A stretch of DNA of 64,000 bases from a virus. This document shows positions 41,267 through 61,751 of the stretch, in pieces; position 1 is the stretch's first letter; the number at the start of each line of letters is the position of its first letter. The notes below the pieces were generated by a model, which did no database searches, was not told where the DNA came from, and saw only the letters and a list, made by a program, of their open reading frames with translations. The stretch lies in the IMG/VR virus record IMGVR_UViG_3300027969_000039, positions 239,058 to 303,057 of that record. One strand, 5' to 3'. The position numbers and the translations under genes were made by a program.

Positions 41267-42092
41267 AATACTAGATGCTAATGCAGTAGAGGTCTATGAT
41301 GTTGACTATAAGAATTTATCTACGGATGAAGTTAATCAGATAGCAGAGTTGTATTTCAAACATCTTGTTGTGATAGCCAGGGATCAACACTTATCTCCAG
41401 AAGATATGATCAAGGTAGCAAATCAGTTTGGCGTTCCTGAATATTTTGATCCAGAAACACAACGACAAAGAGCCGCTGAGAATGTCAATGGAGTACAAAG
41501 AGTTTGCAAAGGATTCAATGACGATGGTACTCCTAAAGGATTGTTTGGGCATGATGAAGAATTGAATTGGCATGCTAATCGACCATCAGCAGAGAACGAA
41601 CGCAAACCTATCATATTCCTAGTAGCAGCACATGATACTAAAGGATCAAAGATAAGCTGGGCCAATATGGCATTAGCCTACGATGATCTAGACCAATCGA
41701 CTAAAGATTTCTTAGAAGATAAGAAAGGTATATATGGATTTGAGCCGGACACATATACTAAGTCATTCAACATATGGAAACCACATCGCAATAAAGATGG
41801 ACAGAATTTTATCAGAACGAATCCAGTAGGGATAAAAGGAATGTTTTTTCCTTATTATCAATTTTTTGGATTTAAAGATGTTGATGAGAAAACTAATCAA
41901 TATTATAAAGAACTTCTATTCAATCATTCTTATCAAGACAAATATTGCTATCACCATGAGTATGAAGATGGCGATGTTATATTTGGAGATCAGTGGTTAA
42001 CTGTTCACAAACGATGGGCTTGTGAATTAGGTAATAGAATGATCTATAGAGTTTCTATGGATTGGTCTAAATGTCTAACTATCTCATTGTAG
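41256..42092 (+). CDS. TauD/TfdA-family 2OG oxygenase homologue with HxN motif (278 aa)
   Basis: The start chosen is GTG 41256 (ggaaag upstream), inside the end of the desaturase gene; an ATG at 41229 would overlap more. The TauD pattern is clear: VIARDQHLSPEDMIKVANQFG at the start, LNWHANRP in place of the metal motif W-H-x-D, GSKISWANMALAY, the distal ligand H251 in TVHKRW and Arg 265 in NRMIYRVSMDW. H106 is kept but the carboxylate ligand is replaced by N108. The substrate is unknown. Its 3' end overlaps the convergent minus-strand gene by 49 bases. Confidence 0.75.
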   Translation: MKYKILDANAVEVYDVDYKNLSTDEVNQIAELYFKHLVVIARDQHLSPEDMIKVANQFGVPEYFDPETQRQRAAENVNGVQRVCKGFNDDGTPKGLFGHDEELNWHANRPSAENERKPIIFLVAAHDTKGSKISWANMALAYDDLDQSTKDFLEDKKGIYGFEPDTYTKSFNIWKPHRNKDGQNFIRTNPVGIKGMFFPYYQFFGFKDVDEKTNQYYKELLFNHSYQDKYCYHHEYEDGDVIFGDQWLTVHKRWACELGNRMIYRVSMDWSKCLTISL

Positions 42093-42799
42093 TAGGTATT
42101 TAAAATAGTATTACAGTACTCAATTTTTTCTATTCTGAATGAGTCACCTATCATACTTTGTAGAAAATCGATAATATCTACAAATCTTCTATCAACTAGC
42201 ATAGTACATAAATCTATTGAATTTTGTGTAGGTTTGGTATTAAATTTATTTAACACCAATTTATTACTGTTTTCTTCTGTCCCGGGGTAACATGCGACAT
42301 TTCTATCAAATTGATATTTCAACCCTCTTTCAGTCGTTGGAATAATAGATAGTTGTTTTATATTATATCCTAAACTAATCATTTCATCGTACGGTATAAT
42401 ATTGCTCCAGGTATGCATACCATATATCAATCTCATATCTTTTATATCAACATCATTATTACTATAAAACTTAATATCATTTGTTTGATGTTTCCATTTT
42501 TGCTGTTGAGCAATCAAATGAGTTGCTAAATTTTCAAAAAAATAAACATAATCAATAGTAGATGAAGGGTCACACTTGTCTAAAAACCAATTCACTATTC
42601 TTTTTGGAATTAATATATCGTAATCAATTTCTCTTGAAGCTGCATTCTGATTTATTGTTGTAGCGGATAATATTCTTGAATTCTCATAGTGTAATTTACT
42701 ATCTAGTTCAGCCCATAATCTTAATAACAGCTGGCCAGATGAACCAGGCATATAATCTATTAAAATTAATTCATTGTTTTCTAGTATTGAAAATTTCAT
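42044..42799 (-). CDS. Unknown protein with GSSG-type glycine-rich N-terminal motif (251 aa)
   Basis: The N-terminus has LILIDYMPGSSGQLLLRLW, a hydrophobic strand followed by a Gly/Ser loop and helix, placed like the phosphosulphate loop of sulphotransferase-type proteins. The protein at 46241 has the same plan (YYLMYGGGAGGEFLTNL). The rest has no motif I recognise; it is Ile/Asn-rich and soluble. It is the last gene of the long minus-strand block and overlaps the convergent TauD-like gene by 49 bases, so there is no space for a separate terminator. Confidence 0.5.
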   Translation of the reverse strand: MKFSILENNELILIDYMPGSSGQLLLRLWAELDSKLHYENSRILSATTINQNAASREIDYDILIPKRIVNWFLDKCDPSSTIDYVYFFENLATHLIAQQQKWKHQTNDIKFYSNNDVDIKDMRLIYGMHTWSNIIPYDEMISLGYNIKQLSIIPTTERGLKYQFDRNVACYPGTEENSNKLVLNKFNTKPTQNSIDLCTMLVDRRFVDIIDFLQSMIGDSFRIEKIEYCNTILNTYYNEIVRHLDQSIETL

Positions 42800-42800
42800 G

Positions 42801-43370
42801 TCACACTAAATCAAGTAGAATATTATTTAGATTAGGATCTATTTTTGACACCCAAGTGTTTATTGAATAAATTTCTAGTTCTCTTTTATCTTCACCTCTT
42901 TCAATAGAATATTTAAAATCAAACACTTTTATTTTACCATTCTTATGTGTCATATTGGCCATTGCATTATTAATTTTGTAAATATTATTTTCTTTGAAGA
43001 ACTTAAAAATTTCAACTATTTGTTCTGATGCGTCAGGTATAATGTGATTTAATCTAGTACTTTCATGCTCGTACCAAGTCAACAAATCTGGATTTGTCCA
43101 CTCTTGTATTAAATAAAAACCCGGCTCGTCTTTTAATTCACCATGCTCGTATAATTCAATTACCATATCAGATTTTAATTTAGTTGACCAATGTATTTCA
43201 GTATTAAAAAGTGAGGTTATTCTTTCCATAGATGTCTCAAACGGTTTTTTGCCGGTTATAGTAATACTATCTGGTTTATAAAATTTTTTACAAAGACCTG
43301 CATCCTTGTCTACCCAAACTTCAGCGGCCGACCCGCGGGACCCATTATCTTTTTGAAATAATTTAAACAT
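42801..43370 (-). CDS. Protein-kinase-like fold with altered catalytic loop (189 aa)
   Basis: The order of elements resembles small kinase-like proteins: EVWVDKDAGLCKKFYKP (nucleotide lobe with Lys), VIELYEHGELKDEPGFYLIQEW (hinge), a helix IVEIFKFFKENN, then KINNAMANMTHKNGKIKVFDFKYS. In the last segment the usual HxDxxxxN catalytic loop reads with Asn in place of Asp, while the metal-binding DF motif is kept. It may be an inactive or atypical kinase acting on a sugar or other small molecule. It lies between an oxygenase and the last gene of the block. Confidence 0.4.
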   Translation of the reverse strand: MFKLFQKDNGSRGSAAEVWVDKDAGLCKKFYKPDSITITGKKPFETSMERITSLFNTEIHWSTKLKSDMVIELYEHGELKDEPGFYLIQEWTNPDLLTWYEHESTRLNHIIPDASEQIVEIFKFFKENNIYKINNAMANMTHKNGKIKVFDFKYSIERGEDKRELEIYSINTWVSKIDPNLNNILLDLV

Positions 43371-43379: not shown

Positions 43380-43961
43380 TCAACGATTACTTAATATTAC
43401 TGCTACTAAATGAACTCTTGAACCTTTACTCCCATTAAATGCGGTATGTCTTTTTGTAGTATCTGCTATATGCCATTTGTTTAATGGTAAAGTCATAACT
43501 TCATCTTCTATTACTAAAAAACATCCTTCTTGTGATACAATTGGATAATGTAACCTAGGAGTATCATCAACATGCCAACTCAAACATGTTTTTGGTTTCA
43601 AATTCATCAATCTGATCCTACCTAATATATATCTTTCATTTAACATATTAAAAACTGTTTCAAAAGTTGTTCCTTTAAATTGACTGCACATGACCGTAAA
43701 GTCAGATTCATTTAACTGTTCTGTTTTTATAAAAAGATTACTAATATTATCAATACCGTTAACTGAATCTATTTTAGAATTATTCCAATCAAACATTAAA
43801 CTTCCTGCACCTTTGTGAAAATCATGTTCAAAATTTGGTATAGAATTTAAACAAATTTGATTTTGTTCTCCCCAGCTTAACACCTTTGAACTTATTAATT
43901 GATCAAGTTCTATGGATAGTGTTTCGAATGTTGGTAAATTTACTTCAGTAAAATATTTCAT
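43380..43961 (-). CDS. Asp/Asn beta-hydroxylase-like 2OG-Fe(II) oxygenase (193 aa)
   Basis: The C-terminal half carries the complete motif set: RIRLMNLKPKTCLSWHVD with ligands H130 and D132, then RLHYP (136-140), KWHIADTTKRHTAFN with ligand H172, and Arg 182 in GSRVHLVAVI to bind 2-oxoglutarate. This pattern is that of the aspartyl/asparaginyl beta-hydroxylase family. It hydroxylates an unknown substrate, perhaps a product of the upstream radical SAM enzymes (inference from the operon). Confidence 0.8.
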   Translation of the reverse strand: MKYFTEVNLPTFETLSIELDQLISSKVLSWGEQNQICLNSIPNFEHDFHKGAGSLMFDWNNSKIDSVNGIDNISNLFIKTEQLNESDFTVMCSQFKGTTFETVFNMLNERYILGRIRLMNLKPKTCLSWHVDDTPRLHYPIVSQEGCFLVIEDEVMTLPLNKWHIADTTKRHTAFNGSKGSRVHLVAVILSNR

Positions 43962-43981: not shown

Positions 43982-44506
43982 TTATGGTCTAATTAAGCAT
44001 TCAGTAACTCTATATTTAATTCCCCAATTAATCTGTTCTATTATATATTTTGCAGCATCGCTAACTTCTATATATGATTCAGGGTTACAATCTCTTAATA
44101 CCCGTTGAGTACCTACCCAGCCAAATTTAATATTAATTACTTTGCATGGATCGTCTAAATGACTTAATTGCTCAGAGGCTTTGTCTAATGCAATTTTGTG
44201 TGCTGTATACATGTGGGGAAAATTTTTGATTCCGCAAGTAGTGGATGAACCTATATTAACTATTATTTTGTTGGAACCTTGCCAAACTTTAAATAACTCG
44301 TATAACAAAGTTACCTGATTAAAATCAGCGTATGCATTATTGATGAATACATCACACTCAATAGACTGTAATATTATAGATTCTCTGTTTTCTTTAACTG
44401 TAATATCATATCCATTACTCTTAGAGAACCCTATATAATTTGATTCTAATAAATTAGTCAATGCTAATCCTATCCCTTGAGTATGACCTGTAATTGCGTA
44501 CTTCAT
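43982..44506 (-). CDS. Short-chain dehydrogenase/reductase (174 aa)
   Basis: ATG 44506 overlaps the stop of the PP-loop gene (ATGA) and directly precedes the Rossmann start KYAITGHTQGIG (Gly loop 6-13). Other SDR signatures are NNAY at 56-59, NIGSS with catalytic Ser about 87, and YTAHK with Tyr 100/Lys 104. At 174 aa it is short for the family (about 250). It should catalyse an NAD(P)-dependent oxidation or reduction, possibly of a sugar or nucleoside intermediate. Confidence 0.85.
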   Translation of the reverse strand: MKYAITGHTQGIGLALTNLLESNYIGFSKSNGYDITVKENRESIILQSIECDVFINNAYADFNQVTLLYELFKVWQGSNKIIVNIGSSTTCGIKNFPHMYTAHKIALDKASEQLSHLDDPCKVINIKFGWVGTQRVLRDCNPESYIEVSDAAKYIIEQINWGIKYRVTECLIRP

Positions 44507-45138
44507 ACAAACCTTTTGAATCCCCAAAGTCTTTCTTTGCACCACCAGCAGTTATTACAGTGTCCTAAAAAATCAGCCGGAGGATTTTCTATTTCGCAGC
44601 TTCTAGTTAATGGAAATAACGTTTCTGTTAAGTTTAAAGAGTGGTACATTTCAGCTATTTTTATTTTATCAATATTAAAAAATGGAAAACAAAAATTATC
44701 ATAAATTATAGATTTTACTATTAACGGGTCTCTCTCCACATGTTCAGTATTGTCAATTGGTGTCAAAAAATTATCTGCTATGTCTTTAGGAGGATTAGCT
44801 GTTAATCCTGCATATAATTTAGTTATTTTTTTATTTTCTAACATTTCATTGGGCAATCTAAGTAATTTTTCATTATTTTGTACATCAAGATATACTACAT
44901 GATGATTTATATTATTGTTTTTGGTTAACTCTACGCACTTGTCAATTACATTAGCTGCAACTTTTGCCGGTAATCTTCCCTTAAGGTCTGGTGCTAATGT
45001 AAATACTTCAAGTGTTTCTTTTTTATTTAATAGTAAAATATACAATAAAAGGCTACTATCGGTTCCACCGGAGAAATTTATTCCTACGTTCCCATCAAAT
45101 AATGGAATTTCTACATTTTCTATTATTATATTTTTCAT
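44503..45138 (-). CDS. QueC-like PP-loop ATPase (211 aa)
   Basis: The ATP-pyrophosphatase signature SGGTDSS is at residues 23-29. The C-terminus has a Cys set C181, C194, C197, C200 (SC...HCNNCWWC) followed by RLWGF, like the zinc site of QueC (7-cyano-7-deazaguanine synthase). QueC adenylates a carboxylate and adds ammonia. The middle differs from true QueC, so it is better described as a QueC-like ligase or amidase of unknown substrate. It starts inside the stop of a radical SAM gene (4-base overlap), the same rSAM-then-PP-loop order as at 58398/57727. Confidence 0.75.
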   Translation of the reverse strand: MKNIIIENVEIPLFDGNVGINFSGGTDSSLLLYILLLNKKETLEVFTLAPDLKGRLPAKVAANVIDKCVELTKNNNINHHVVYLDVQNNEKLLRLPNEMLENKKITKLYAGLTANPPKDIADNFLTPIDNTEHVERDPLIVKSIIYDNFCFPFFNIDKIKIAEMYHSLNLTETLFPLTRSCEIENPPADFLGHCNNCWWCKERLWGFKRFV

Positions 45139-46244
45139 ATCGTCCTCTTTGGCAATTTACTATCGGCACTACTTACACATGAATTACTTATACAAATCAT
45201 AGGCTTATCGAATAATTTGAATCCAGTCTCTATGTTTCCCAGTGGAGTATCAGTGCAACTATAACTACGCTTGATACTACCATCTGGTTCTCTGATGATT
45301 ATGCCTTGAAATCCACTATTACATTCCCAACCTTTAAAATTGTTGAACCCGAACGCATTGAATCGTTCTGCTTGATCCATGTACCATTTCTTACCGTATT
45401 TATCAGTGAATTCTACTTGCATGTGTGCAGGCACACTACTATCATTTTCTCCTGCCATGTGAGGAGGAACTTCAAATTTAGCTTTTGGTCTATCATTCCA
45501 TACACGCTTCTTTTCAGTATAAGCACGTTGCGGCATACCATTATGTAACTGTTTCATCTGTTCTTCAGTATACCCACTGACTACAAAATTAGCAGTAGGA
45601 TCGCTCTGCGGTTTCAACGTGACATTGATTCCTTGATTGTGGAAGAACAATGCATTCTCGTAGTCTTTATCAAACCATGCGGGAACCATTACCATGTTGA
45701 TGGTTATCTGTACATCATGTTCTTGACAGAATATCAGTTTATCTGCAAAGTCTTGCATCTTCTCAATCGTGTCAAGATGCTCTGTGTGTAGACTCGCCGT
45801 GATGCTAGCACGATGAAATTTCTTAGCATGTTCTACATATGTCTCAAACCATTTCATATTCCTAGAACAGTTACTGGTCATATGTATGCTAGTGTAATTA
45901 GTATTGTCTACATCATTCGCTAGATACTTTAGTATGTCTAGATATCCAGGATGAAACGTAGGTTCACCACCACTTAGACTAAAATGAAAACTATTAAATC
46001 CATTAAGTCTAGCTTGAGATTTTATCTCATCTATAGTACTTAAGCATAACTCTGTAGGTCTATGGTCTTTCGTATCACTACGGGCATAAGGCCAGCAATA
46101 GCTACATTTGTAGTTACAAAATCTACCTAGCAACCAACTGACGGTGAATAGGTCACGATACAATAAAGTTCGTTGGCCTACTTGCACTATATCTTTAAAT
46201 GGGATTTTAGTGAAATCATAATCACTGTATTTTAAATCAGTCAT
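45135..46244 (-). CDS. Radical SAM protein with C-terminal Cys-rich (SPASM-like) part (369 aa)
   Basis: The radical SAM motif CNYKCSYC (C43, C47, C50) follows SWLLGRF; the SAM-binding GGEP motif is present as LSGGEPTFHPG. C-terminal Cys residues (WECNSGFQG, SYSCTD, CISNSC) probably hold an auxiliary cluster. The pattern is closer to organelle-type rSAM enzymes with SPASM/twitch ends than to QueE. It overlaps the PP-loop gene by 4 bases downstream and the upstream gene by 4, so the three are made together. Confidence 0.88.
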   Translation of the reverse strand: MTDLKYSDYDFTKIPFKDIVQVGQRTLLYRDLFTVSWLLGRFCNYKCSYCWPYARSDTKDHRPTELCLSTIDEIKSQARLNGFNSFHFSLSGGEPTFHPGYLDILKYLANDVDNTNYTSIHMTSNCSRNMKWFETYVEHAKKFHRASITASLHTEHLDTIEKMQDFADKLIFCQEHDVQITINMVMVPAWFDKDYENALFFHNQGINVTLKPQSDPTANFVVSGYTEEQMKQLHNGMPQRAYTEKKRVWNDRPKAKFEVPPHMAGENDSSVPAHMQVEFTDKYGKKWYMDQAERFNAFGFNNFKGWECNSGFQGIIIREPDGSIKRSYSCTDTPLGNIETGFKLFDKPMICISNSCVSSADSKLPKRTI

Positions 46245-47185
46245 AATATATATGGGGCCACATTAAATCCATGTTTGGACAATAACGACAAATTCTTTTT
46301 GTGCCAAACAATCAATTCATCATTAAATGATGAATCATAGTCAATATCAAATATTTCTTCTAAATATCCTTTAATAAAGATTTTAGAATAATCAATAATA
46401 GTAACTCCTCTTTCTTTTAATGCTGGGATTTGAAAATTTGAATAGGCTTCAAAATTTCCCATTATTTTATAAAAATACTTATTATATAAATCAAACGGAG
46501 TTGAATTAAAAATTTCATTAAAGGTAATGTTTTTATCATATTTCATATATGCAATTACGTCTAACTGCATTCCGTACATAATCGTTATGTTATTTTTTAT
46601 AACCCAATCTAGTCCATTGTTTAACAAGCTAGACAATTCAGCGTCATTTATATACCTACTACGGTCATGCTCAAAAAATTTAATTTTATCATTCTCTTTA
46701 AGGCAGATATGTTTAACTGCTAAATCTTTTATAAATAATAAACTTCCTGCATAAGTATACCATTTTTCATTATCAGCACATATCAAATAAGTATTTTCTT
46801 TAGTAAAGTATGAATTTGATAAAATATTGCATCTAAACAAAGGTGGCTTGTGATCTTGTTTTAAATAAACAATAGCCTCATTTACTTTGTCTTTTATGTT
46901 ATACCCTAAAAAATCATTTTTAGTTTTTATGACATTGATTAAATCAGTAATTGATGAATTGTAAGTAAGGTTGCAATGATATACTAAATGAAAAAAATAT
47001 GGCAATCTGACTAAAGTTCTATTTTCTGAAGTTACAATAACTTGAGTAGAAACATTATTCCTAAATTTTTTAGTATGTGTCGAGATTAAATTAGTTAAAA
47101 ATTCACCACCTGCCCCTCCACCATACATGAGATAGTATATTGGATAATTGCATAATGCTTCTAAAATTAGTTCATCATCATTCAT
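46241..47185 (-). CDS. Unknown protein with GGGAGG-type N-terminal loop (314 aa)
   Basis: The start chosen is ATG 47185, which overlaps the upstream stop (ATGA) and has GGAG six bases before it; an ATG 4 codons earlier is less likely. The N-terminus IYYLMYGGGAGGEFLTNLIS could be a phosphate-binding loop. The end, VTIIDYSKIFIKGYLEEIFDI...WHKKNLSLL, is reminiscent of sulphotransferase C-terminal regions. Several aromatic residues lie between. Same plan as the gene at 42044. The sulphotransferase idea is weak. Confidence 0.45.
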   Translation of the reverse strand: MNDDELILEALCNYPIYYLMYGGGAGGEFLTNLISTHTKKFRNNVSTQVIVTSENRTLVRLPYFFHLVYHCNLTYNSSITDLINVIKTKNDFLGYNIKDKVNEAIVYLKQDHKPPLFRCNILSNSYFTKENTYLICADNEKWYTYAGSLLFIKDLAVKHICLKENDKIKFFEHDRSRYINDAELSSLLNNGLDWVIKNNITIMYGMQLDVIAYMKYDKNITFNEIFNSTPFDLYNKYFYKIMGNFEAYSNFQIPALKERGVTIIDYSKIFIKGYLEEIFDIDYDSSFNDELIVWHKKNLSLLSKHGFNVAPYIL

Positions 47186-48471
47186 ATATAGCTCCATGTT
47201 TTTATTAAAGTAGAAACAAATGGAAAAATATTAATCCAATCTTGTTTTTGATTTATAGCTAACCGATTAAATACTCCTACTAATTGTTTTCGTGTTTCAT
47301 TGAGCAACGATTCAGACATTATCATACGAGATGAGGTACAATACTTCTCATAAGAATCAAGTTTTTTTAATATTTTTTTGTCCCCGTTAGCTTTGTTTTT
47401 TACAATATCAAATATAGTATTCTGTTGCCGTTCATCAAGTAAATTGATATTGAAAAATGCTGGGTTATATACTAAATGACTAGTACCAGGATTTTCTATG
47501 TCTCTGTTTATCTTCTTATAGTTTTGCTTCTTTATCCATATCATTAAGTCAGAGTAATGTTCCAGTGTTAATATACTTACTGTAGTAGAAGTGAACACAG
47601 TAATGTTTTCCGCAGATTCATCCAACATTTTTAAATTTTGTTCAATAGTTTCCCATTTTGAAGGGTAACGAACAGCATCGTTAGCAATTCCATACGCATC
47701 TACACTAGCGCAAATTCTAATCACTTTGAATTTTTTCCACATGTCAAACAACAACGGAGGGAATACAGTTAAGTTCACGCTATATTCTAACTCAATGTTT
47801 TTTGCGTAACCTTCTTCTATCAACCTATTCAATAGATAATGATGGTACTTAATTATTAATGGTTCACCGCCACCGAACTTAATCTTGTTTAAATATTTTG
47901 AATTTTCGATTAATGCATCTATCTTATCTTTGTCATTGGCCCAATCAAAGTCGCTATCAGCTAATTTCAGATTGTAAATCTTGTCATCTACAATAAAATG
48001 ATCATGTCCAGTTATCTCTTGATAATCTTTATACCATAAGGTAGATTCACCGGGAAAACACATTACACATCGTAGATTACATTGATTTCCTATCCTAAGG
48101 TCTAGTGAAACTAACTTTGAATTAGTTATCGTACCGTCGACGGTCGTGCTGTTGATAGCATCATCAATAGTAAATGTATCTAAATGTCTTTTAGTTTCCC
48201 AATCGTTTCTGCTGTTACTTCCCGTACTAGTATCAACCTCACACCGCTTGCATTGTTCTGGCCACACCCCATTTAATATATCTTTGCGTACTTGCTTAAG
48301 TGTGTCACAATTTAATACATTGTCTATGTTAGCTAAACTATCTGCTTTCAATGTCACTTTATCTTTGGACAGCACGGTATTTTCATTACTACCACTTTGA
48401 CTATGGGAACACATACGGAGTGTTCCGTTATTTTTAATTGCGACATGAGTCCAAGGTAAAGGGCACCACAT
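47182..48471 (-). CDS. Radical SAM protein with N-terminal twitch-like Cys region (429 aa)
   Basis: The N-terminus MWCPLPWTHVAIKNNGTLRMCSHSQ (split as C3, C21) and CKRC (C74, C77) form the Cys-rich region that precedes the rSAM core in this group. The core has CNLRCVMC (C131, C135, C138) and GGGEPL. Residues RICASVDAYG and VRYPSKWETIEQNLK follow, as in its paralogues. The N-terminal Cys set probably binds an extra [4Fe-4S] cluster. First gene behind the minus-strand late promoter at 48492-48499. Only one Cys is seen where paralogues have CC. Confidence 0.88.
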   Translation of the reverse strand: MWCPLPWTHVAIKNNGTLRMCSHSQSGSNENTVLSKDKVTLKADSLANIDNVLNCDTLKQVRKDILNGVWPEQCKRCEVDTSTGSNSRNDWETKRHLDTFTIDDAINSTTVDGTITNSKLVSLDLRIGNQCNLRCVMCFPGESTLWYKDYQEITGHDHFIVDDKIYNLKLADSDFDWANDKDKIDALIENSKYLNKIKFGGGEPLIIKYHHYLLNRLIEEGYAKNIELEYSVNLTVFPPLLFDMWKKFKVIRICASVDAYGIANDAVRYPSKWETIEQNLKMLDESAENITVFTSTTVSILTLEHYSDLMIWIKKQNYKKINRDIENPGTSHLVYNPAFFNINLLDERQQNTIFDIVKNKANGDKKILKKLDSYEKYCTSSRMIMSESLLNETRKQLVGVFNRLAINQKQDWINIFPFVSTLIKTWSYI

Positions 48472-54320: not shown

Positions 54321-55503
54321 TTAATTTTATCAGTTCAGGGATAGTTTCCCAAGTGTTTTCATTTCTAAGTTTATCTATTTGTTTAGTTGTTTTGATGAAT
54401 AAATTTAAGTCTTTGAAATTAGAAGGTTTTGATAATTCTGCTAAAGTTTGTTTAAATTCTGAAATTATATTTGTTGAGTATTTATTGTCATATATATTTG
54501 CAAAAGATATAAGGTTATCGGTAATTGTTTTTTTAAATTCATCTGGAAGTACGCTTACGTTGTAATATGCAGGAGCTTCGATTAAATTAATATAAAAATT
54601 ATTCTTTTTAATTATCTTTGAATCAGTTAGATATGTAATAATATTAGGCAATCTACTAACATTTAATACTCCTACTGTTATTCCAATGCCAAATTTAATA
54701 AAATCAAAATTAGATAATTGTTTTAAATTAGATTCAACACTTTTCCATACTGTTCCGTAACGAACTAATTCAGCACGATCTCCAATCTCATCAATACTTG
54801 CCCATACACTTATCTTTTCAGAATTCCACTTGCGCCAATAATCTAGTATGTCTTTTTTTCCATATGTTAACGTAGAACAGTTTGTATTGTATCGTATACG
54901 TACATCAAATTTTTTATGTTCTACTAACATATCTAATATTTGCCAATGTTCAGGCATCAATAAAGGTTCTCCGCCTGCAAAATATATTTCTTCAACATTA
55001 TCAATTTGACTTTCTAAAAAATTAAAATCAATAGGAGTGTTTAATACTTTGTTTTGTTCAGATAACCATTTTAAATTAATTGCATCTTGTGTCCATGCGC
55101 TACTAAATGCAGGTCCGCAACTACGACATTTAAAATTACATAGATTGCTAAATCTAAAATCCCAATACTTCAAATGCATCGTAGAACAAGTTCCGTCAGA
55201 ATTTGTTATATTAGGTATATTTTTTAAAACATCTAAATAAGATTCATTGCGAGAATAACGATTACTTTTTCCGGTAACATCTTCTTTATCAAAACATGAA
55301 CTACATACAGTTGGACGAATGTTATTCATCATCTCACTTCGTAATTTCTTCATATTATCACTGTTCCATATTTCATTGATAGGTTGTGTATTAAGATCAC
55401 CGGCATGGTAATGCGGTTTAATCAAACAACACGGAACTACTTTACCATTTGGTTGAAAGTTTAAATGCACCCACGGAACAACACACAATGTTTTAGAAGT
55501 CAT
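54310..55503 (-). CDS. Twitch-type radical SAM protein (397 aa)
   Basis: It starts MTSKTLCVVPWVHLNFQPNGKVVPCC (Cys 7, 25, 26), nearly the same N-terminal plan as the 52932 protein, then CSSC (C67, C70). The rSAM motif CNFKCRSC (C122, C126, C129) and IYFAGGEPLL follow; ISVWASIDEIGDRAELVRYGTVW is the family strand. Somewhat shorter than its paralogues. It overlaps the detached SPASM-like gene by 11 bases. Confidence 0.9.
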   Translation of the reverse strand: MTSKTLCVVPWVHLNFQPNGKVVPCCLIKPHYHAGDLNTQPINEIWNSDNMKKLRSEMMNNIRPTVCSSCFDKEDVTGKSNRYSRNESYLDVLKNIPNITNSDGTCSTMHLKYWDFRFSNLCNFKCRSCGPAFSSAWTQDAINLKWLSEQNKVLNTPIDFNFLESQIDNVEEIYFAGGEPLLMPEHWQILDMLVEHKKFDVRIRYNTNCSTLTYGKKDILDYWRKWNSEKISVWASIDEIGDRAELVRYGTVWKSVESNLKQLSNFDFIKFGIGITVGVLNVSRLPNIITYLTDSKIIKKNNFYINLIEAPAYYNVSVLPDEFKKTITDNLISFANIYDNKYSTNIISEFKQTLAELSKPSNFKDLNLFIKTTKQIDKLRNENTWETIPELIKLNDF

Positions 55504-55828
55504 TTTTTATTTCTTTAAATGAAATGTTTATACTATCATCTCTTACATCAGACTTATCTATGTTGTCATTTATTTTGTCACTACAAAATTTAGAACAAAC
55601 TGATTTTTCATTTTTCCAACTTTCTTCTATTTTTTTCATAGCTTGACTATTTTTCATTTCAGCTAAAGAATATTTTTTACCATCTAGCTGTTCATATAAA
55701 GGTCCTAAAAATTCTGTCACTTTATTAATATATGGTTCATTTGCTATCCAGCAACATGGAAAATAGAAGCCATGAGCAGAAATATAGTCTGATGTTAATC
55801 CTTTTTTACATCTAGGATAAATTAACAT
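55493..55828 (-). CDS. Detached SPASM-like C-terminal half of a radical SAM protein (111 aa)
   Basis: It contains PRCKKG, then ISAHGFYFPCCWIANEPY and ESWKNEKSVCSKFC. These segments align by eye with the C-terminal part of the 58398 protein (ITAEGLLMPCCWTAGRMY and ESSWKL...VCSQKC). It lacks the rSAM core, which is in the overlapping upstream gene (55812-56456) in another frame. Either a natural split enzyme or the result of one indel. The Cys would hold an auxiliary cluster. Confidence 0.75.
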   Translation of the reverse strand: MLIYPRCKKGLTSDYISAHGFYFPCCWIANEPYINKVTEFLGPLYEQLDGKKYSLAEMKNSQAMKKIEESWKNEKSVCSKFCSDKINDNIDKSDVRDDSINISFKEIKNDF

Positions 55829-56456
55829 AGCGCCTCTGTACTTCTTGCCAATCTATCGTTGGTGTTAATGGATCTTCACTTTCATATCTTACACTTTTTA
55901 CAATGCTAAATTCATGGAATCCTAATTTTCTTGCTAAGTATATACCTTCGTCAATATTGTATTGATTATACTTAAATAAAATCCATTTCCAAATTATTTT
56001 AATATTAGGATTATATTCTACTAAAGTCTTAATACCGTTTTCAATAGTTTCCCACTTGCTATTAACTCTATATAAATGATTGTTGTTTGGTAATCCATCT
56101 ATTGAAAATACAATGTTGTCACGATGGTCAAGTATGCTTGCTGTTTCTTTCCACCAATCGATACTTCTAAATGCACCATTAGTATGCATACCTATACTCA
56201 TGTGGGGATGTGCTGTTCGTATACTAGATATTAATTCGTGAAATTTAGGGTGATATATAGGATCACCGTGATTGCCACACATGACAAACTTCTTTTTTCC
56301 CTCAGCTAATTTTACGGTAGTGTCAATATCACAATCTTCTAATTTAATATTATCAATTGACAATGTTCGCGGGCAATGCGGACATGCTAACGTACACCTA
56401 CTAGTAGGTTCTATGTGTAGTACTCTGTCATCTATCCAAATATCTTCATTATTCAT
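55812..56456 (-). CDS. Radical SAM core protein, N-terminal half of a split enzyme (214 aa)
   Basis: The motif CTLACPHC (C21, C25, C28) follows VLHIEPTSR, and the SAM-binding region reads MCGNHGDPIYHP, matching MCGNLGDPI of the 58398 protein. It ends WQEVQRRYVNLS just where that homologue continues toward its SPASM part. The 17-base overlap with the next gene is the only long out-of-phase overlap in the block apart from the convergent one. Confidence 0.8.
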   Translation of the reverse strand: MNNEDIWIDDRVLHIEPTSRCTLACPHCPRTLSIDNIKLEDCDIDTTVKLAEGKKKFVMCGNHGDPIYHPKFHELISSIRTAHPHMSIGMHTNGAFRSIDWWKETASILDHRDNIVFSIDGLPNNNHLYRVNSKWETIENGIKTLVEYNPNIKIIWKWILFKYNQYNIDEGIYLARKLGFHEFSIVKSVRYESEDPLTPTIDWQEVQRRYVNLS

Positions 56457-56461
56457 GCTAT

Positions 56462-57730
56462 TTAAATAACAAATTCATCTAACCATGGAAATAAAGGTTT
56501 CCAATTTAAATTTCTTCTTCTATCTATATCATCTAGTTGAATTTTTAGTTCTTTTACTAATTCAGGGCAATAAGGTTGATTATTAATAGTATCACGATAT
56601 CCACTAAGTTTTTCTTTGAGATATTCAGATGGTGCAACTGCAATCATCCTGTCAAAATCTTCATCAAAAAACCCATTAGGAAATATATCGGCTCGCAAAT
56701 AAGTCATATAGTCAGCAAAACTAAAAGAAATTTCAATTAGCGAAAGATCATTTGTTGTTCTGATATTGTTATAATAATTAATTTTTTCAATTAATTCTGG
56801 ATATGTTTTTATAGTTAAGTTGCACATAGTAGAATGTACTACTAATTTTATTTTAGGGTATTCTGCTATTAACGTTTTAAAATTTTCTTCCCATTGAATT
56901 AAATCTAAACCATGTCTAACATATTCTTCTTGTGGTCCCCATGCATCAATGCTACAAAATATTCTAAAAGATTTTATATGATTTTTAGTAACTAAATTTT
57001 CTACTTTATCTAATATTTTTCTAAATTTAGTATTTGATACTTTTAAATTTGAAAAAATACTAAAAATTAATTCAGGGCATGGATTTGTTTCAAAAAATTC
57101 TATATTTTGTTCAAACTCAGGTTGAAAAAATGGCTCACCACCTAACAAATTATATTCTCTTATAGACAATGCATTTTTTTCCAACCAAGCCCAATATTTT
57201 TTTACTAATATGGGATAGTCTTTTTTTCTGTCAATATGTTTATCTAACTCTTTTTGTGATTTTAAATTAAATTTAATATCTTCATTTTCCCATACCGTGC
57301 TATATTCTGAATTGCAATAAAGGCAAGCCATGTTACATAAATTATTGAAATATACTTCAACAATAGTTGGCGATACTTTAATAGCTTTATTATTATTTAA
57401 CAATTCAACAGCAGGTTTTACATAGTGTTTGCTAGTAGGATGCACGTTTAAATTTACACTCATCCTATCACTAATGCCACCACTCTTTTCAATTTTTTCG
57501 CAATATTCACATCCTTTGCCGGGCCAACGGCCATCTAACATATCTTTCCTGGTACTTAATTTTAAAGGAGTATTGTGAAAATCTTCAATGTTTTCAACTG
57601 TTATTTCATCGGGGTTTACTCTATGACAACTGTTTGTTTTTTTAGCATATATATTTATTGAACTCCATGAAAATTTCCACACACAAGCCGGTTCCGGCAT
57701 TCCATATATATCTTTAAAATTATTTTTCAT
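56462..57730 (-). CDS. Twitch-type radical SAM protein, divergent (422 aa)
   Basis: ATG 57730 overlaps the PP-loop stop (ATGA) and is preferred over a start 7 codons upstream. N-terminal Cys: C16 in PACVW, C35 in NSCHR, and CEYC (C74, C77). The rSAM motif is CNMACLYC (C132, C136, C139), followed later by NLLGGEPFFQPEF and FRIFCSIDAWGPQEEYVRHG. The N-terminal Cys set lacks the CC pair of its relatives, so its auxiliary cluster may differ. AT-rich codon use. Confidence 0.87.
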   Translation of the reverse strand: MKNNFKDIYGMPEPACVWKFSWSSINIYAKKTNSCHRVNPDEITVENIEDFHNTPLKLSTRKDMLDGRWPGKGCEYCEKIEKSGGISDRMSVNLNVHPTSKHYVKPAVELLNNNKAIKVSPTIVEVYFNNLCNMACLYCNSEYSTVWENEDIKFNLKSQKELDKHIDRKKDYPILVKKYWAWLEKNALSIREYNLLGGEPFFQPEFEQNIEFFETNPCPELIFSIFSNLKVSNTKFRKILDKVENLVTKNHIKSFRIFCSIDAWGPQEEYVRHGLDLIQWEENFKTLIAEYPKIKLVVHSTMCNLTIKTYPELIEKINYYNNIRTTNDLSLIEISFSFADYMTYLRADIFPNGFFDEDFDRMIAVAPSEYLKEKLSGYRDTINNQPYCPELVKELKIQLDDIDRRRNLNWKPLFPWLDEFVI

Positions 57731-58395
57731 ATGAGTCTTCCAAATCCCCATTTTCTTTCATGGCACCACCAGCAAGTTTCACAATGTGGTGTTGACCAAT
57801 CATAAGTCTTAGCTTCGCAACTTTTAGTGATTGGAAATAATGTATCCATCAAGTTAAAATGATTATATAATTCTGCTATTCCTTTTTTATCTAAATTAGC
57901 AAAAGGTCTATAACATCTAGGTCCCGGCATAACTGATTTTATTTCTTCTGTGCGGTCTCTCCTAAAATCTCTCTCGTCTATCACAGCTTCATTAAATGAA
58001 TTGCACACTTCAGGTGGTGGATTGCAATTAATACCAGTGACATGGCAATCAATAATTTCATTTTTATACGCTCCTTCAGTCAGTATATCTTGTGCATCTT
58101 GTAATTCGGGTCCTTCCATTACAGGATCACAATGTAAATGTTCACTAAATTTGATATCAAATTCTTTCTCACAAAATTCTATTACTCTTTTACTAAAAAT
58201 AAATTGATAAGGTTTTAAAATATTGACCGCAGTTATAGGATGTATACTGATTTCTGGTCTTTCAGTTACTTTATACTTCGATAGTATATAGCAGATCATG
58301 GCGCTATCTGCGCCGCCTGAGATTTTAATTCCCACTTTATTGAATTGTGGATCTATAGTAAAATCTATATCCTGTTGAGAATTTTTGATAAACAT
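57727..58395 (-). CDS. QueC-like PP-loop ATPase, second paralogue (222 aa)
   Basis: SGGADSA at residues 26-32 is the ATP-pyrophosphatase loop. The C-terminal set C193, C205, C208, C211 (SC...HCETCWWC) followed by KWGFGRL matches the first paralogue at 44503 and resembles the QueC zinc site. VTGINCNPPPEV in the middle corresponds to AGLTANPPKDI of the paralogue. It follows a radical SAM gene after 2 bases, repeating the rSAM-PP-loop pairing. Confidence 0.77.
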   Translation of the reverse strand: MFIKNSQQDIDFTIDPQFNKVGIKISGGADSAMICYILSKYKVTERPEISIHPITAVNILKPYQFIFSKRVIEFCEKEFDIKFSEHLHCDPVMEGPELQDAQDILTEGAYKNEIIDCHVTGINCNPPPEVCNSFNEAVIDERDFRRDRTEEIKSVMPGPRCYRPFANLDKKGIAELYNHFNLMDTLFPITKSCEAKTYDWSTPHCETCWWCHERKWGFGRLI

Positions 58396-58397: not shown

Positions 58398-59483
58398 TTA
58401 CTTAAATTGTTCTGTGAATACATCAAACTCTGTGCCGCATTTTTGTGAACACACTTCTAATTTCCCTGCTGCTACACTAGATAATTTCCAACTTGATTCT
58501 ATTTTTGAAAATAATTTACTATTGTCAATAACATCACTCAAATCGTTGTTGATAACATCGATGCCTTTTTTACCGCCTGTATTATCAATTATGTGCCAAA
58601 TTTGTTCTATTCTGTAATCTTCATGCCACCATTTATACATTCTACCTGCTGTCCAGCAGCAAGGCATAAGCAGTCCTTCGGCAGTGATAAAAATATTACC
58701 TTCTTTAACAACCTTACAATCTATTTTACAACTGTCATAGTATTTAGTCATGCTCCCGTGTTGAGCAATTAATTCTTGTTCTTTGGATAAAACACGATTT
58801 TGAAATTCTTCTTTAGGTTTTTTAAGCAATATAGTTTCCGTGCCTTTCCGATTTTGTGCTTGATGTTCTTCTTTTCCTTGATTTCTTGCAGTGCTAAAAA
58901 ATCTAGCAGTTTTCTTTTTAGTAAATTTTTCACATCCCCACTCATTTGCTAACTTTTCGGCTTCTTCCACTTGATGTTGATTGTGTTCAAATATGATATA
59001 ATCCCATCTTGCTCTGCCACCTGCATTGATAAAACTACGCATACTGTTTTCTACTATACTCCATTTAACATTTTGGCGATATAGATGATTAGTATCTACT
59101 AACCCATCCACAGAGAATATTACAGCACCTTTGTTGTTGTATATCTTGGCTAATTCTGTCCACCAATCAGTATCTCTAGCCCCTGCGTTAGTATTCATAC
59201 TGAGCCACATGTTTGCATTATGTTCTCTAAAATATCGAAATACTTCTAGTGTATCTCTAGCAACTATTGGATCACCTAAATTACCGCACATGTACATTGT
59301 GTCTAGCTGACTAATAAATTTTGTGGAGAATATCTTTTTGCAATCATCTAAAGATAGTTCAGCATTGGTGATGTGTTTATTATCTTTGCCACCGTTCTCG
59401 TTGCGGTCACACATTGGACATGCTGCTTGACATAACTGTGTTATCTCTAAATGAACTTTCTTTATATCTTTTGATTTATACAT
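58398..59483 (-). CDS. Radical SAM protein with SPASM-like domain (361 aa)
   Basis: The motif CQAACPMC (C18, C22, C25) follows KVHLEITQL, with YMCGNLGDPI in place of GGEP, and IFSVDGLVDTNHLYRQNVKW. The C-terminus has DSCKIDCKVV, then ITAEGLLMPCCWTAGRMY and VCSQKCG, an auxiliary cluster region. It is the intact relative of the split pair at 55493/55812. Its start overlaps the methyltransferase-like gene stop by one base. Confidence 0.9.
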   Translation of the reverse strand: MYKSKDIKKVHLEITQLCQAACPMCDRNENGGKDNKHITNAELSLDDCKKIFSTKFISQLDTMYMCGNLGDPIVARDTLEVFRYFREHNANMWLSMNTNAGARDTDWWTELAKIYNNKGAVIFSVDGLVDTNHLYRQNVKWSIVENSMRSFINAGGRARWDYIIFEHNQHQVEEAEKLANEWGCEKFTKKKTARFFSTARNQGKEEHQAQNRKGTETILLKKPKEEFQNRVLSKEQELIAQHGSMTKYYDSCKIDCKVVKEGNIFITAEGLLMPCCWTAGRMYKWWHEDYRIEQIWHIIDNTGGKKGIDVINNDLSDVIDNSKLFSKIESSWKLSSVAAGKLEVCSQKCGTEFDVFTEQFK

Positions 59484-60175
59484 TATTTTATGCCGATACG
59501 CATATATCGTGTGTACTTATCAAGCGCCAATTCACCTTCATATAGCATAGTAGACATTGGAGATTGTATTCTAAATTCTTCTAAGCTATTAGAACAATTT
59601 ATATGATCTTCAATCTCAACGTAGTTATTGGTTTGAAGTATAACTATCTTATTATTAGGTATGTTATTGTACCAAACATCAAAATTATGTATATGTTCAC
59701 AGCTAGTATTGATGATGGTGTTTGCAGAATCAGTTAATTCTAATTTACTTCTATCATATCTATGAGTTTCATATTTAAAATTTTCATAAATTAGATTATG
59801 TATATCTACTGTAGCTGCTTTAAATTGCCAATTATTTTTTACTTTTTCTCTGTTTATAGTTTCTGCTACTCGTTCACACAACGGATCAATGTCAAAGCTA
59901 CGAATTTTATCTATTATGCAACTACTCTCAAATAACATTGGTGCTAATGTAGCATACCAACCAGCACATAAAAATATGATACCTAAATCTAAGTTTAATT
60001 TTTCTAATTCAGATACTAACCATCGTTTACTTTTTAGTTGTCCCCAGCTTAACGCATCAGACAAGTCAGCACCCTCATTATCAACTGCATTGCATAATTG
60101 ACTAAACAATTTGTTTTGAGTTAAAACAAACATTCTTCCAAACGTATCTTTATCATCTGTCCAATTAATTGTCAT
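59483..60175 (-). CDS. SAM-dependent methyltransferase-like protein (230 aa)
   Basis: The start chosen is ATG 60175 (a TTG one codon upstream also exists); it overlaps the glycosyltransferase end by 11 bases. LDLGIIFLCAGWYATLAPML followed by KIRSFDIDPLCERVAETIN reads like motif I and the acidic loop of class I methyltransferases, with G-W replacing G-x-G. ANTIINTSCEHIHNFDVWYNNIP would be motif IV. The catalytic role is uncertain, but the Rossmann-like order is convincing. Confidence 0.6.
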   Translation of the reverse strand: MTINWTDDKDTFGRMFVLTQNKLFSQLCNAVDNEGADLSDALSWGQLKSKRWLVSELEKLNLDLGIIFLCAGWYATLAPMLFESSCIIDKIRSFDIDPLCERVAETINREKVKNNWQFKAATVDIHNLIYENFKYETHRYDRSKLELTDSANTIINTSCEHIHNFDVWYNNIPNNKIVILQTNNYVEIEDHINCSNSLEEFRIQSPMSTMLYEGELALDKYTRYMRIGIK

Positions 60176-61751
60176 CAAATTTCTCCTTTAACCAATCAAA
60201 GTTATTAATCTTTGATAGTGCTAGTAAATGGCCTTTATTTAATGTTCCGTATGATCTGCCTTGAATTGCACCAGCAATCGCATATTTACCATATGGTCTA
60301 TCAGCACCCACTGTACACCATGTTTCCAATCTATTAAATGTTTCCTCATCGTTCTGTCTGTCAATGACTTTACTTGCTAGTTTGCAACATTCTCTAAATG
60401 CACTACGCCAAGCACTAAATGCGTCAGTATTGAAATTTGTTATGTTGCTAACTTCAAATACGGGCTTGTACTTAGTGCTGATACTGGTGGTCATGTCAGG
60501 CTTACTCAAGTCCATGTTGATTGTTAACTCTCTAGGGAATAACTTGATGCCACCAAATCCATACTCTAAGTCATTGACTGGATTCTTACTGCGCCAAACA
60601 TAAACCCAGTCCATCTTGTCTGGATGAACGATATAGTCAAAATTAAAATTCTTGTTTATTACGGCATCACCATCTACTATCCAAACCATCTTAGTGTTGG
60701 CTAACTTAGCAGCAGTAATATGTGCATTATGTATACCTTTAACACCGTCAACTCTTTTTGCTCTTGGGAATCTACGCTTAAGATTAGTCCAATTCTCCTC
60801 AGCATTAGGTTCATTGTATGTTACCATAATAATATCATATTCATACTCATTAATAGTATCAACTGAGTGTATCGTTTTGGGTTGTCTATCGGGGTTGAAT
60901 TCTAAAGTTTTAATGAATTTGCTTTGTTCACTAGTAAATGGTTCACATATTGGGATAATGCTACCTAAAGTTTTGCATTCGTTTACTGCATCTAACACTG
61001 ACATTTTTTCTACCGTAGATTTATACAAATCATTTAAATAATCAAAATCTCTTACTTGAGTAAAATCCCAATTTGTATATTGTGTTTTATAACATCCTTG
61101 TCTAGCACCTAATATAGCCCATATGCCATTATTAACCTCTATTCCAGTAGTCATCCAAATTTTTAGTCTATTTAAATTACCTATGTTTAAGTCTGCTAAT
61201 TCATCGACTTTAATTCCGTTATGCAAGCACATCTTTACCCCTTCACGGAATCCAGCACGCCATGCTTGCAACTGGCTAGTATTATTGTGTATTATAGAAT
61301 ATGACTTATCTATTGCCATATAATTTAATGCCCAACAAAAATCTACTTGAGTCATGGGATCATTTAGATCCGCTGCCTCATGTGTTTTCATATCAAGCAT
61401 TGCTTGTACAGGCCAACATTTGATTCCCCCGTTGCCGTACAATAAACCGTTGATGATATTCTTACTGGGCCAACTAAAGACTGTTTTACTGTCATCGATT
61501 GAATCATCTAACACTAGTGTCTGATGTAGATATTTGTGGTCAATAACCGCATCGCCGTCAATGACTGATACTCGTGGGGTAGTTGCTAATTTTGCAACCG
61601 CTTTGTGTGCAGCGTCACTACCTTTAACTCCATGAACCCTTTTGGCATAAGGAATTTTTGTTAACAAATCTTCCCAATTTGCTTGTGCATTTGGCTCATC
61701 ATAGCTAAGATAGACAACATCGTATTCGTAGATTTTAAATTCTTTACTCAT
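60165..61751 (-). CDS. Tandem-duplicated glycosyltransferase, GT-A-like (528 aa)
   Basis: Two homologous halves: DVVYLSYDEPNAQANWEDLL...AKRVHGVKG...SVIDGDAVID (DGD at 65-67) and DIIMVTYNEPNAEENWTNLK...AKRVDGVKG...WIVDGDAVIN (DGD at 360-362). Each DGD is the metal/nucleotide-sugar motif of GT-A enzymes, and each half carries GNGGIKCWP or GFGGIKLFP and a later AWRAGFRE or AWRSAFRE. I recognise single units of this type from T4-like marine phages. It likely transfers sugars to phage DNA, protein or host glycan. First gene of the minus-strand block. Confidence 0.8.
   Translation of the reverse strand: MSKEFKIYEYDVVYLSYDEPNAQANWEDLLTKIPYAKRVHGVKGSDAAHKAVAKLATTPRVSVIDGDAVIDHKYLHQTLVLDDSIDDSKTVFSWPSKNIINGLLYGNGGIKCWPVQAMLDMKTHEAADLNDPMTQVDFCWALNYMAIDKSYSIIHNNTSQLQAWRAGFREGVKMCLHNGIKVDELADLNIGNLNRLKIWMTTGIEVNNGIWAILGARQGCYKTQYTNWDFTQVRDFDYLNDLYKSTVEKMSVLDAVNECKTLGSIIPICEPFTSEQSKFIKTLEFNPDRQPKTIHSVDTINEYEYDIIMVTYNEPNAEENWTNLKRRFPRAKRVDGVKGIHNAHITAAKLANTKMVWIVDGDAVINKNFNFDYIVHPDKMDWVYVWRSKNPVNDLEYGFGGIKLFPRELTINMDLSKPDMTTSISTKYKPVFEVSNITNFNTDAFSAWRSAFRECCKLASKVIDRQNDEETFNRLETWCTVGADRPYGKYAIAGAIQGRSYGTLNKGHLLALSKINNFDWLKEKFDDN

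Follow-up and report, generated by a model that had tools for sequence, protein, structure and literature searches.

The uncultured virus studied here, a T4-type jumbo phage of 303 kb (record length 303,057 bp) that infects bacteria, carries a block of radical SAM and associated genes that is a conserved system around the core GT21-MT20-rSAM19-rSAM13-rSAM06 and not a random pile of genes, and which very probably works as one functional system. The explanation that we prefer, with a probability of about 0.45, is that of a phage-encoded biosynthetic and tailoring island, which would produce a variable glycan on the virion fibres or on the surface of the host. The odds of a glycan-type product, taken separately, are balanced, and given a glycan, the fibre and the host surface are about equally probable locations. 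Unless genome positions are given, all positions refer to the window, i.e., the whole analysed stretch of 64,000 nucleotides; the genes are listed in Table 1.

Table 1. Genes of the block and the two genes adjoining it, with their positions in the window.
Gene	Position	Strand	Assignment	Evidence
g01	42044..42799	-	251 aa, no family; last gene of block	Pfam match sub-threshold only
g02	42801..43370	-	no Pfam family ("kinase-like" in the earlier note)	best PDB match TTK kinase, E 0.027
g03	43380..43961	-	Fe(II)/2OG aspartyl/asparaginyl beta-hydroxylase family	PF05118 (Asp_Arg_Hydrox) 33.3 bits, cut-off 22.6
g04	43982..44545	-	SDR-like, weak	PF00106 E 0.0044, below cut-off
g05	44503..45138	-	QueC-like PP-loop ATPase, C-terminal CxxCxxC metal motif	PF06508 27.6 bits, cut-off 22
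g06 (rSAM06)	45135..46244	-	core radical SAM enzyme	PF04055 2.4e-12
g07	46241..47197	-	318 aa	no family match
g08	47182..48471	-	N-twitch radical SAM	NF033640 292.8 bits
g09	48528..49373	+	aminotransferase-like, putative	no Pfam or significant PDB match
g10	49368..50687	-	N-twitch radical SAM	NF033640 380 bits
g11	50691..52037	-	N-twitch radical SAM	NF033640 354.9 bits
g12	52009..52935	-	radical SAM	PF04055 1e-7, above cut-off
g13 (rSAM13)	52932..54320	-	core N-twitch radical SAM	NF033640 422.8 bits
g14	54310..55503	-	N-twitch radical SAM	NF033640 365.8 bits; SPASM Pfam 53.9 bits
g15	55493..55828	-	free-standing SPASM-type domain, partner of g16	homologous to g19 C-terminus
g16	55812..56456	-	radical SAM core without auxiliary domain	PF04055 1e-8
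g17	56462..57751	-	N-twitch radical SAM	NF033640 217.5 bits
g18	57727..58395	-	second QueC-like PP-loop ATPase	PF06508 22.1 bits, cut-off 22; 31% to g05
g19 (rSAM19)	58398..59483	-	core radical SAM, C-terminal SPASM-like region	radical SAM profile match
g20 (MT20)	59483..60178	-	core class I SAM methyltransferase fold	AlphaFold2 pLDDT 91.4
g21 (GT21)	60165..61751	-	core tandem GT-A glycosyltransferase, as modelled	AlphaFold2 (homologous domain) pLDDT 93.3
desaturase	40466..41266	+	fatty-acid desaturase, adjoins block	PF00487 51.4 bits; homologue in Mosig island
TauD	41229..42092	+	TauD-family 2OG oxygenase, adjoins block	PF02668 79.2 bits; homologue in Mosig island

Radical SAM and accessory proteins of the block

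An earlier note on this DNA had assigned ten genes with a CX3CX2C motif to the radical SAM enzymes. All ten are real open reading frames, and a PF04055 search of the phage's own genome matched 10/10 of them (E 9.1e-14 to 5.3e-5), which places their products in the radical SAM superfamily. The ten motif-bearing proteins compare with 0.08 expected from residue shuffling, and the motif occurs in none of the 21 other window ORFs of at least 150 aa. The entire record contains 19 radical SAM genes by PF04055 search, and eight related records contain 10-21 each, giving 10-21 such enzymes per virus across these genomes. As also described before, most genes of the block overlap or abut, with 16 of the 20 junctions overlapping or at most 4 nt apart.

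Six of the proteins (g08, g10, g11, g13, g14 and g17) are full-length members of the N-terminal twitch family NF033640, with scores of 217-423 bits against a curated cut-off of 170 bits for the full-length profile. The family is defined by sequence, and this analysis came upon neither a function nor a substrate for it. Of three further proteins scanned, g06, g12 and g19, none reached the NF033640 cut-off. The Pfam Radical_SAM cut-off was passed by g06, g12 and g16, with g17 and g19 below it in the protein scan; g19 is over no curated cut-off, yet it is a homologue of g16 (33%, 4.6e-38), which is also 30% identical to Mosig_00084. The cut-off of the viperin-type antiviral equivalog NF038283 was not reached (best 40.3 bits, cut-off 180). 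The N-twitch proteins are very diverse, 320 of them falling into 102 clusters at 60% identity. Alignment A1, a broad one, proved too heterogeneous for the genome scan, for which A2 was used. The N-twitch cysteines C5, C23, C75 and C78 and the radical SAM triad C132, C136 and C139 are invariant in 26 sequences.

The small gene g15 is the detached SPASM half of g16, a relation missed in the earlier note. In phage Mosig, on a Bdellovibrionota contig and elsewhere, 13 distinct loci in all, a small SPASM ORF was likewise found abutting a separate radical SAM ORF of 200-250 aa. Since these separate pairs, overlapping or abutting, recur in both gene orders, the idea of a single gene broken by a frameshift was rejected, and the split radical SAM/SPASM pair is, judged from sequence, conserved.

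Among the remaining enzymes named in the earlier note, both PP-loop ATPases pass the Pfam QueC cut-off and the Fe(II)/2OG oxygenase g03 passes that of Asp_Arg_Hydrox. The SDR g04 does give a match, if a weak one below the cut-off, and proteins related to it turn up repeatedly in clusters of viruses and of Bdellovibrionota. Profile searches lent no support to a kinase-like protein or to a PLP enzyme. The g09 product is 29% identical to a gene product of Pelagibacter phage Mosig annotated as an aminotransferase and has homologues in Bdellovibrionota clusters, and g01 has no homologue but itself in the fetched loci. A guess that g01 and g07 are sulfotransferase-like gained nothing from profile searches, and the same holds for the accessory protein L018:13655 as an amidinotransferase. 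Two genes for A-type Fe-S carriers are present on the phage genome and are counted in favour of the preferred explanation.

A conserved core in viruses and Bdellovibrionota

Most of the related viral loci on IMG/VR contigs, by a wide margin, show the order GT21-MT20-(74-aa ORF)-rSAM19-rSAM13-rSAM06. Relatives of rSAM06 are encoded on 583 viral stretches, and rSAM13 accompanies rSAM06 in 62 of 65 viral records that bear rSAM06. Nearly all of the best 80 related viral contigs carry rSAM13 with 75-84% identity. At 68 viral loci, rSAM19 lies upstream of rSAM13 in 66 cases, and GT21 and MT20 are present in 62 and 61, respectively. An ORF of 74 aa lies between MT20 and rSAM19 at 58 of these loci; it is conserved over its full length, almost always without cysteine, and was found neither in this whole genome nor in the Bdellovibrionota core loci. 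The genes between and around the core genes, among them N-twitch radical SAM enzymes, QueC-like ATPases, 2OG hydroxylases and further tailoring enzymes, vary strongly across relatives. Gp23 capsid was found in 9/9 records. Although the core stands on hundreds of uncultured viral contigs, it is in no phage record of the collection searched (50,697 records), where GT21 and rSAM06 gave no match and the other core genes only distant ones.

In cells, rSAM06 was detected in 12 of 192 Bdellovibrionota genomes (about 6%) and in 0/399 Pseudomonadota genomes. All 11 Bdellovibrionota genomes with rSAM13 (54-63% identity) are among these 12 (Fisher p 4.9e-17, 192 genomes); the core is clustered on the chromosomes of these predatory-type bacteria, with rSAM06 and rSAM13 within a few kb where seen. 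Homologues of g10 (44-48% identity) adjoin this bacterial core. At the bacterial locus L110, the core lies inside an exopolysaccharide-type cluster with an NAD-epimerase, an Asn synthase, a GT2 and an AT3-SGNH acyltransferase. Next to N-twitch genes of cells, GT2 is met more often than any other family, yet with only 8 in a neighbour count of 129 cellular proteins the glycan signal is modest. Scattering of the block in relatives, or proteins falling outside the radical SAM superfamily, had been named as findings that would speak against the earlier note; since the neighbourhood comparison shows the core co-occurring in relatives and the proteins are radical SAM proteins, neither was observed.

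The product of the island

Pfam sees GT21 and MT20 weakly or not at all, and PDB sequence searches with their profiles gave no match; structure models were therefore used, and the assignments rest on them. The top PDB matches of the GT21 model are of GT-A/GT2 type, namely ppGalNAc-T, the WrtF fucosyltransferase, RmlT and SunS, and the best folds for MT20 are NodS and RebM, enzymes that methylate sugar-containing molecules. By these models, GT21 is a GT-A glycosyltransferase and MT20 has the fold of a class I methyltransferase, in agreement with the tandem glycosyltransferase and methyltransferase-like protein described before. Accessory genes of the viral islands include a carbamoyltransferase, an FkbM methyltransferase, a UDP-sugar dehydrogenase, a cytidylyltransferase, an Asn synthase and a GDSL hydrolase, within a small number of profile matches (125 proteins gave 23 families, and many proteins are without family). 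A glycan is also favoured by the N-twitch auxiliary domain, which matches that of the aminocyclitol dehydrogenase BtrN (E 3.5e-5); the domain precedes the radical SAM core here and stands behind it in BtrN. Against a glycan count the hits of the radical SAM core in the PDB, mostly a peptide maturase and viperins, and the QueC-like ATPases and aspartyl hydroxylases, which the known glycan clusters do not typically contain. A complete nucleotide-sugar pathway is absent from the block; nucleotide-sugar genes were found not in this first block but in a second one, as well as in some relatives and one bacterial cluster. This second block with radical SAM genes, missed in the earlier note, lies at genome 163.7-184.4 kb, contains a gene of UDP-glucose-dehydrogenase type and stands beside structural genes of weaker assignment. 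Some 14 kb separate the first block from the tail fibres, which lie on the opposite strand, and this counts against the preferred explanation. In its favour, the island of relatives such as L020 (there directly) and that of phage Mosig follow a tail-fibre-like gene.

According to the glycan explanation, the core would make and transfer a common sugar-derived unit, attached by the glycosyltransferases and methylated by MT20, with the core radical SAM enzymes oxidising, epimerising or dehydrating it as the step in common. Diversity would be brought to the unit by the variable radical SAM and tailoring enzymes, much like the interchangeable genes of O-antigen clusters, and the finished glycan, placed on the virion tail fibres or on the surface of the infected cell, would change recognition or exclude competitors. 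The pathway for a nucleoside, sugar or peptide suggested in the earlier note stands as a unit, with a leaning to sugar, whereas its product is one that we infer. We tentatively propose a new class of radical-SAM-driven pathway common to a widespread, uncultured T4-type phage lineage and Bdellovibrionota, in which the fixed core of glycosyltransferase, methyltransferase and three radical SAM enzymes may make a scaffold, on which fast-evolving N-twitch and split radical SAM/SPASM enzymes may write strain-specific radical modifications for phage or predator/prey surface recognition. If the island does make a radical-tailored glycan or decorated fibre, it would hold a wealth of enzyme chemistry that is still unexplored, and it would give phages a new means of varying the surface used in recognition.

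The best-surviving alternative, which we consider rather unlikely, is that the island modifies a protein or peptide like a RiPP cluster with multiple radical SAM enzymes, its SPASM/twitch enzymes altering residues of a virion protein or of a small precursor, which would also be hydroxylated and methylated. SPASM/twitch radical SAM enzymes act mostly on peptides, the block proteins have profile matches to SkfB, PapB and mycofactocin-type maturases, and an Asp/Asn hydroxylase family is present. The GT21 fold is also used by peptide glycosyltransferases such as SunS and ppGalNAc-T, a point counted against the glycan, and the conserved 74-aa ORF might speak for a peptide as well. However, the tight gene junctions leave no space for a precursor gene in the block, no equivalog cut-off of a RiPP maturase was reached, and sugar genes are among the neighbours. 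A precursor was sought upstream of GT21, where the window holds no conserved peptide, and among the conserved small ORFs, which yielded only the 74-aa ORF; its conservation throughout, its near-constant lack of cysteine and its absence from this genome and the bacterial loci argue against it.

A modified base or sugar on the phage DNA (of the 7-deazaguanine type, a hypermodified thymine or a glycosylated cytosine) as protection against host nucleases is improbable. T4-type phages often modify their DNA, two QueC-like ATPases together with radical SAM enzymes and a glycosyltransferase recall 7-deazaguanine and glycosylated-base systems, and a thymidylate-synthase-family protein is encoded at genome 51,230-52,132. 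However, no protein scanned reached the QueC or QueE equivalog cut-offs: g05, the only one of the two PP-loop proteins run against TIGR00364, scored 19.7 against 150.3 bits, and the QueE scores were far below 206. Of 7 core-bearing records, only 2 have thymidylate-synthase-family genes, Bdellovibrionota carry the core on their chromosomes as well, once surrounded by genes of exopolysaccharide type, and in the relatives read the islands follow tail-fibre-like genes and not replication genes.

An equally low probability is given to a diffusible small molecule, aminocyclitol- or nucleoside-like, acting on the host or on competitors. The BtrN-like auxiliary domain and a gene content like that of small antibiotic clusters, with a carbamoyltransferase, an AMP-ligase and a carrier protein in some islands, are in line with it, but carrier-protein genes occur in few islands, the Pfam scan recognised no exporter or self-resistance gene in the block, and the closeness to tail fibres suggests a structural role. 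Finally, a hypervariable region that merely collects auxiliary cargo or Fe-S users with no function in common, as the extreme variability of the intervening genes and an earlier treatment of radical SAM genes as Fe-S users (PMC5332604) might suggest, is very improbable and largely contradicted by the co-occurrence data, i.e., the kept core order and the near-obligate rSAM06-rSAM13 pairing in viruses and one bacterial phylum.

Relation to described systems

Large radical SAM sets in phages are not as novel as the earlier note supposed. In 2017, 12 radical SAM genes were described in the T4-like ocean virus TARA_ERS488813_N000010 as part of its Fe-S protein content (PMC5332604), and in 2020 pelagimyophages were shown to have radical SAM cassettes in their host-recognition cluster, which is hypervariable (PMC7029224). 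The literature searched for a system of this kind gave brief mentions only, and no system, pathway or function is described in these two. TARA_ERS488813_N000010 resembles the phage studied here as a large T4-type phage with many radical SAM genes and a phage-encoded Fe-S carrier; it is set apart, by description and not by sequence, in that its description mentions neither gene order nor a conserved core nor any counterpart in bacteria (PMC5332604). Like RiPP clusters of the PapB, SkfB and mycofactocin types, the island combines radical SAM and auxiliary-cluster enzymes in operons; unlike them, it has no precursor peptide and no maturase equivalog match, its paralogues are numerous, and its core includes a glycosyltransferase.

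The island of Pelagibacter phage Mosig EXVC030M is an instance of the pelagimyophage cluster, for which no core, pathway or function is named (PMC7029224): it is hypervariable, beside tail-fibre genes and equipped with radical SAM genes. Mosig shares relatives of the desaturase, the TauD enzyme, g09, the split pair g16/g15 and MT20, but lacks a match to rSAM13, rSAM06 and GT21 at E 1e-5 and has only a distant relative of rSAM19. Through this related island, the question becomes testable in culture. The desaturase and the TauD-type gene, which adjoin the block in the phage studied here, had been missed in the earlier note.

Conserved core and variable tailoring genes

The block (genes g01-g21, window positions 42044-61751) is a conserved core embedded among variable tailoring genes, the core comprising the glycosyltransferase GT21 (g21), the methyltransferase MT20 (g20) and the radical SAM enzymes rSAM19, rSAM13 and rSAM06 (g19, g13, g06). 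All ten CX3CX2C genes listed in the earlier note are correctly placed open frames that match the radical SAM profile in a search of the phage's own genome; over the full 303,057-bp record, that search yields 19 of them. The window covers record positions 239,058-303,057. The motif count is far above chance (10 block proteins observed vs 0.08 expected from shuffling), and none of the 21 other window ORFs of at least 150 aa carries the motif. Six of the ten are full-length members of NF033640 (217-423 bits, cut-off 170), a family of radical SAM enzymes that carry their twitch domain at the N-terminus (N-twitch). The cysteines invariant in these enzymes comprise four from the N-terminal auxiliary domain plus the three of the radical SAM motif. 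Most genes had been called overlapping or abutting, and 16 of 20 block junctions indeed overlap or are at most 4 nt apart, an operon-like packing.

The companion labels fared unequally. Both PP-loop proteins exceed the Pfam QueC cut-off, and the one scanned with the NCBIfam QueC equivalog failed it; the Fe(II)/2OG oxygenase g03 belongs to the Asp/Asn beta-hydroxylase family. The tandem GT21 is barely detected in Pfam, and the model of a homologous domain (pLDDT 93) points to GT-A glycosyltransferases, with a Foldseek probability of ~1 and low TM-scores (0.3-0.5); MT20 is predicted to adopt a class I SAM methyltransferase fold (pLDDT 91) closest to NodS and RebM. The SDR, kinase and PLP labels proved weak or unsupported. 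In most relatives, MT20 has an extra N-terminal ~110 aa with ~22-residue repeats (DLRKAVLEENLHSLFRL; related loci L051:6822-7895 and L023:3330-4370), which the window's protein lacks.

In g19, a radical SAM part and a SPASM-type part share a single chain; g15 (111 aa) is a free-standing SPASM-type domain, and its partner g16 has none. Since a small SPASM ORF adjoins a 200-250-aa radical SAM ORF at 13 distinct loci and in both gene orders, with Pelagibacter phage Mosig (an isolate) and one Bdellovibrionota contig among the carriers, g16/g15 looks like a genuine split enzyme rather than an error.

Distribution in viruses and bacteria

Scanning IMG/VR with g13 returned no fewer than 165 related stretches, of which the top 80 are 75-100% identical. 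Of the 68 viral loci with at least 7 kb upstream of rSAM13 (two copies near-identical to the window left out), 66 carry rSAM19 there, 62 GT21, 61 MT20 and 58 a 74-aa ORF, and the order GT21-MT20-74 aa-rSAM19-rSAM13-rSAM06 is conserved in nearly all. The neighbourhood comparison proposed earlier finds the conserved core co-occurring in related phages, not scattered; gene content between the core genes changes freely. An acyl-carrier-protein-like ORF lies within one viral radical SAM island (L039:19297-19530). An independent g06 scan gave 583 stretches; among the 65 g06-bearing records that extend 10 kb or more upstream, g13 lies close to g06 in 32 and elsewhere on the record (at least 59% identity) in 30 of the remaining 33, 62 of 65 overall. 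Both viral samples consist of top matches and are therefore biased toward near kin. The ~74-aa ORF between MT20 and rSAM19 (e.g. locus L012:6335-6556) is conserved and nearly always cysteine-free, has no Pfam family, and is absent from the phage's entire own genome and from the Bdellovibrionota core loci.

Radical SAM genes number 10-21 in each of eight other core-bearing records. Clustering at 60% identity divides 320 N-twitch proteins, taken from this genome and the viral loci analysed, into 102 groups. T4-type Gp23 capsid was found in 9/9 records tested, 70-79% identical to this phage's in full-length comparisons and 100% in one near-identical record; its closest phage records are jumbo phages, e.g. 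Sinorhizobium phage Phosso (72%) and Pseudomonas phage PA5oct (68%). A T4-like ocean virus described as an Fe-S protein user likewise has many radical SAM genes, 12 against 19 here (PMC5332604), and pelagimyophages have radical SAM cassettes in a host-recognition cluster, mentioned as distinguishing two genomes (PMC7029224). Neither passage describes a core, pathway, Bdellovibrionota counterpart or split enzyme; the literature covered was open-access, and other reports may exist.

Among 50,697 phage records, GT21, rSAM06 and the 74-aa ORF had no match, rSAM13 had three, all distant, in two Vibrio phages and one single-cell marine virus, and rSAM19 and MT20 distantly matched only Mosig. In Mosig, tail-fibre genes and VrlC flank the island, which is annotated with a carbamoyltransferase, an ArnB-type aminotransferase, nitroreductases, an epimerase, a desaturase and hydroxylases. 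Vibrio phage K566 (161.5-168.3 kb) has four weakly similar radical SAM genes, one annotated merely as hypothetical.

Matches in a genome-collection scan came mostly from Bdellovibrionota, several chromosomes of which carry the core clustered (g13 54-63%, g06 56-66% identical). Of 192 Bdellovibrionota, 12 have rSAM06 and 11 rSAM13, all 11 among the 12 (Fisher p 4.9e-17); rSAM06 occurs in 0 of 399 Pseudomonadota. N-twitch enzymes exceed the cut-off in 55 of the 192, and profile matches number 10-32 per genome in an initial set of eight bacterial genomes with the core. Bdellovibrionota copies separate from viral copies in the g13 and g06 trees, and virus-bacterium exchange is therefore old. At one bacterial locus (L110), the core is accompanied by an epimerase, asparagine synthase, GT2 and AT3-SGNH acyltransferase, an exopolysaccharide-type set. 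Contigs L101, L102 and L127, filed under Rickettsiales, Neisseriaceae and Gammaproteobacteria genomes, carry phage-type cores, with identity to the window reaching 95% in L102; they look like mis-binned or co-binned phage contigs.

Proposed function

The core would build and transfer a sugar-derived unit, which the variable radical SAM enzymes would diversify. A sugar is favoured by the predicted glycosyltransferase and NodS/RebM-like folds, the nucleotide-sugar, carbamoyl and acyl/SGNH genes of relatives, the exopolysaccharide context of the bacterial core at L110, and the relation of the N-twitch auxiliary domain to that of BtrN. In relatives the island comes after tail-fibre genes, which suggests action on fibres or the host surface: in viral locus L020, a tail-fibre-like gene comes first, then a small gene and two short ones, and after these GT21 and the rest of the island. 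The two short genes and other fibre-like genes had no confirming profile match.

The strongest rival is that the island acts on a peptide or protein, since peptides are the usual substrates of SPASM/twitch enzymes and the GT21 fold also resembles peptide glycosyltransferases; no precursor is present, which weakens this reading. A diffusible metabolite is a possible product. DNA modification is less likely, as no QueC or QueE equivalog was found among the proteins scanned and the core is also chromosomal in bacteria.

A second radical SAM block in the phage genome adjoins virion structural genes that are less firmly assigned. The A-type Fe-S carriers possibly serve the numerous radical SAM enzymes.

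Further features of the phage genome (record coordinates unless marked as window)
Feature	Number or size	Location	Profile
Second block, large radical SAM proteins	2 (735 aa, 640 aa)	163.7-184.4 kb	
Second block, N-twitch enzymes	several	163.7-184.4 kb	
Second block, further g06/g12-type enzyme		163.7-184.4 kb	
Second block, UDP-glucose-dehydrogenase-type gene		163.7-184.4 kb	
Second block, single-domain relative of GT21		163.7-184.4 kb	
A-type Fe-S carrier genes	2	G000:C1:12751-13050 and 120197-120505	PF01521
tRNA gene cluster	11	62412-63952 (window)	
Giant proteins	2 (3009 aa, 2607 aa)	5258-24418 (window)	

The tRNA cluster lies just past the block at the record end, and the 3009-aa protein has profile matches to numerous families of tail fibres and collagen-like tail proteins.
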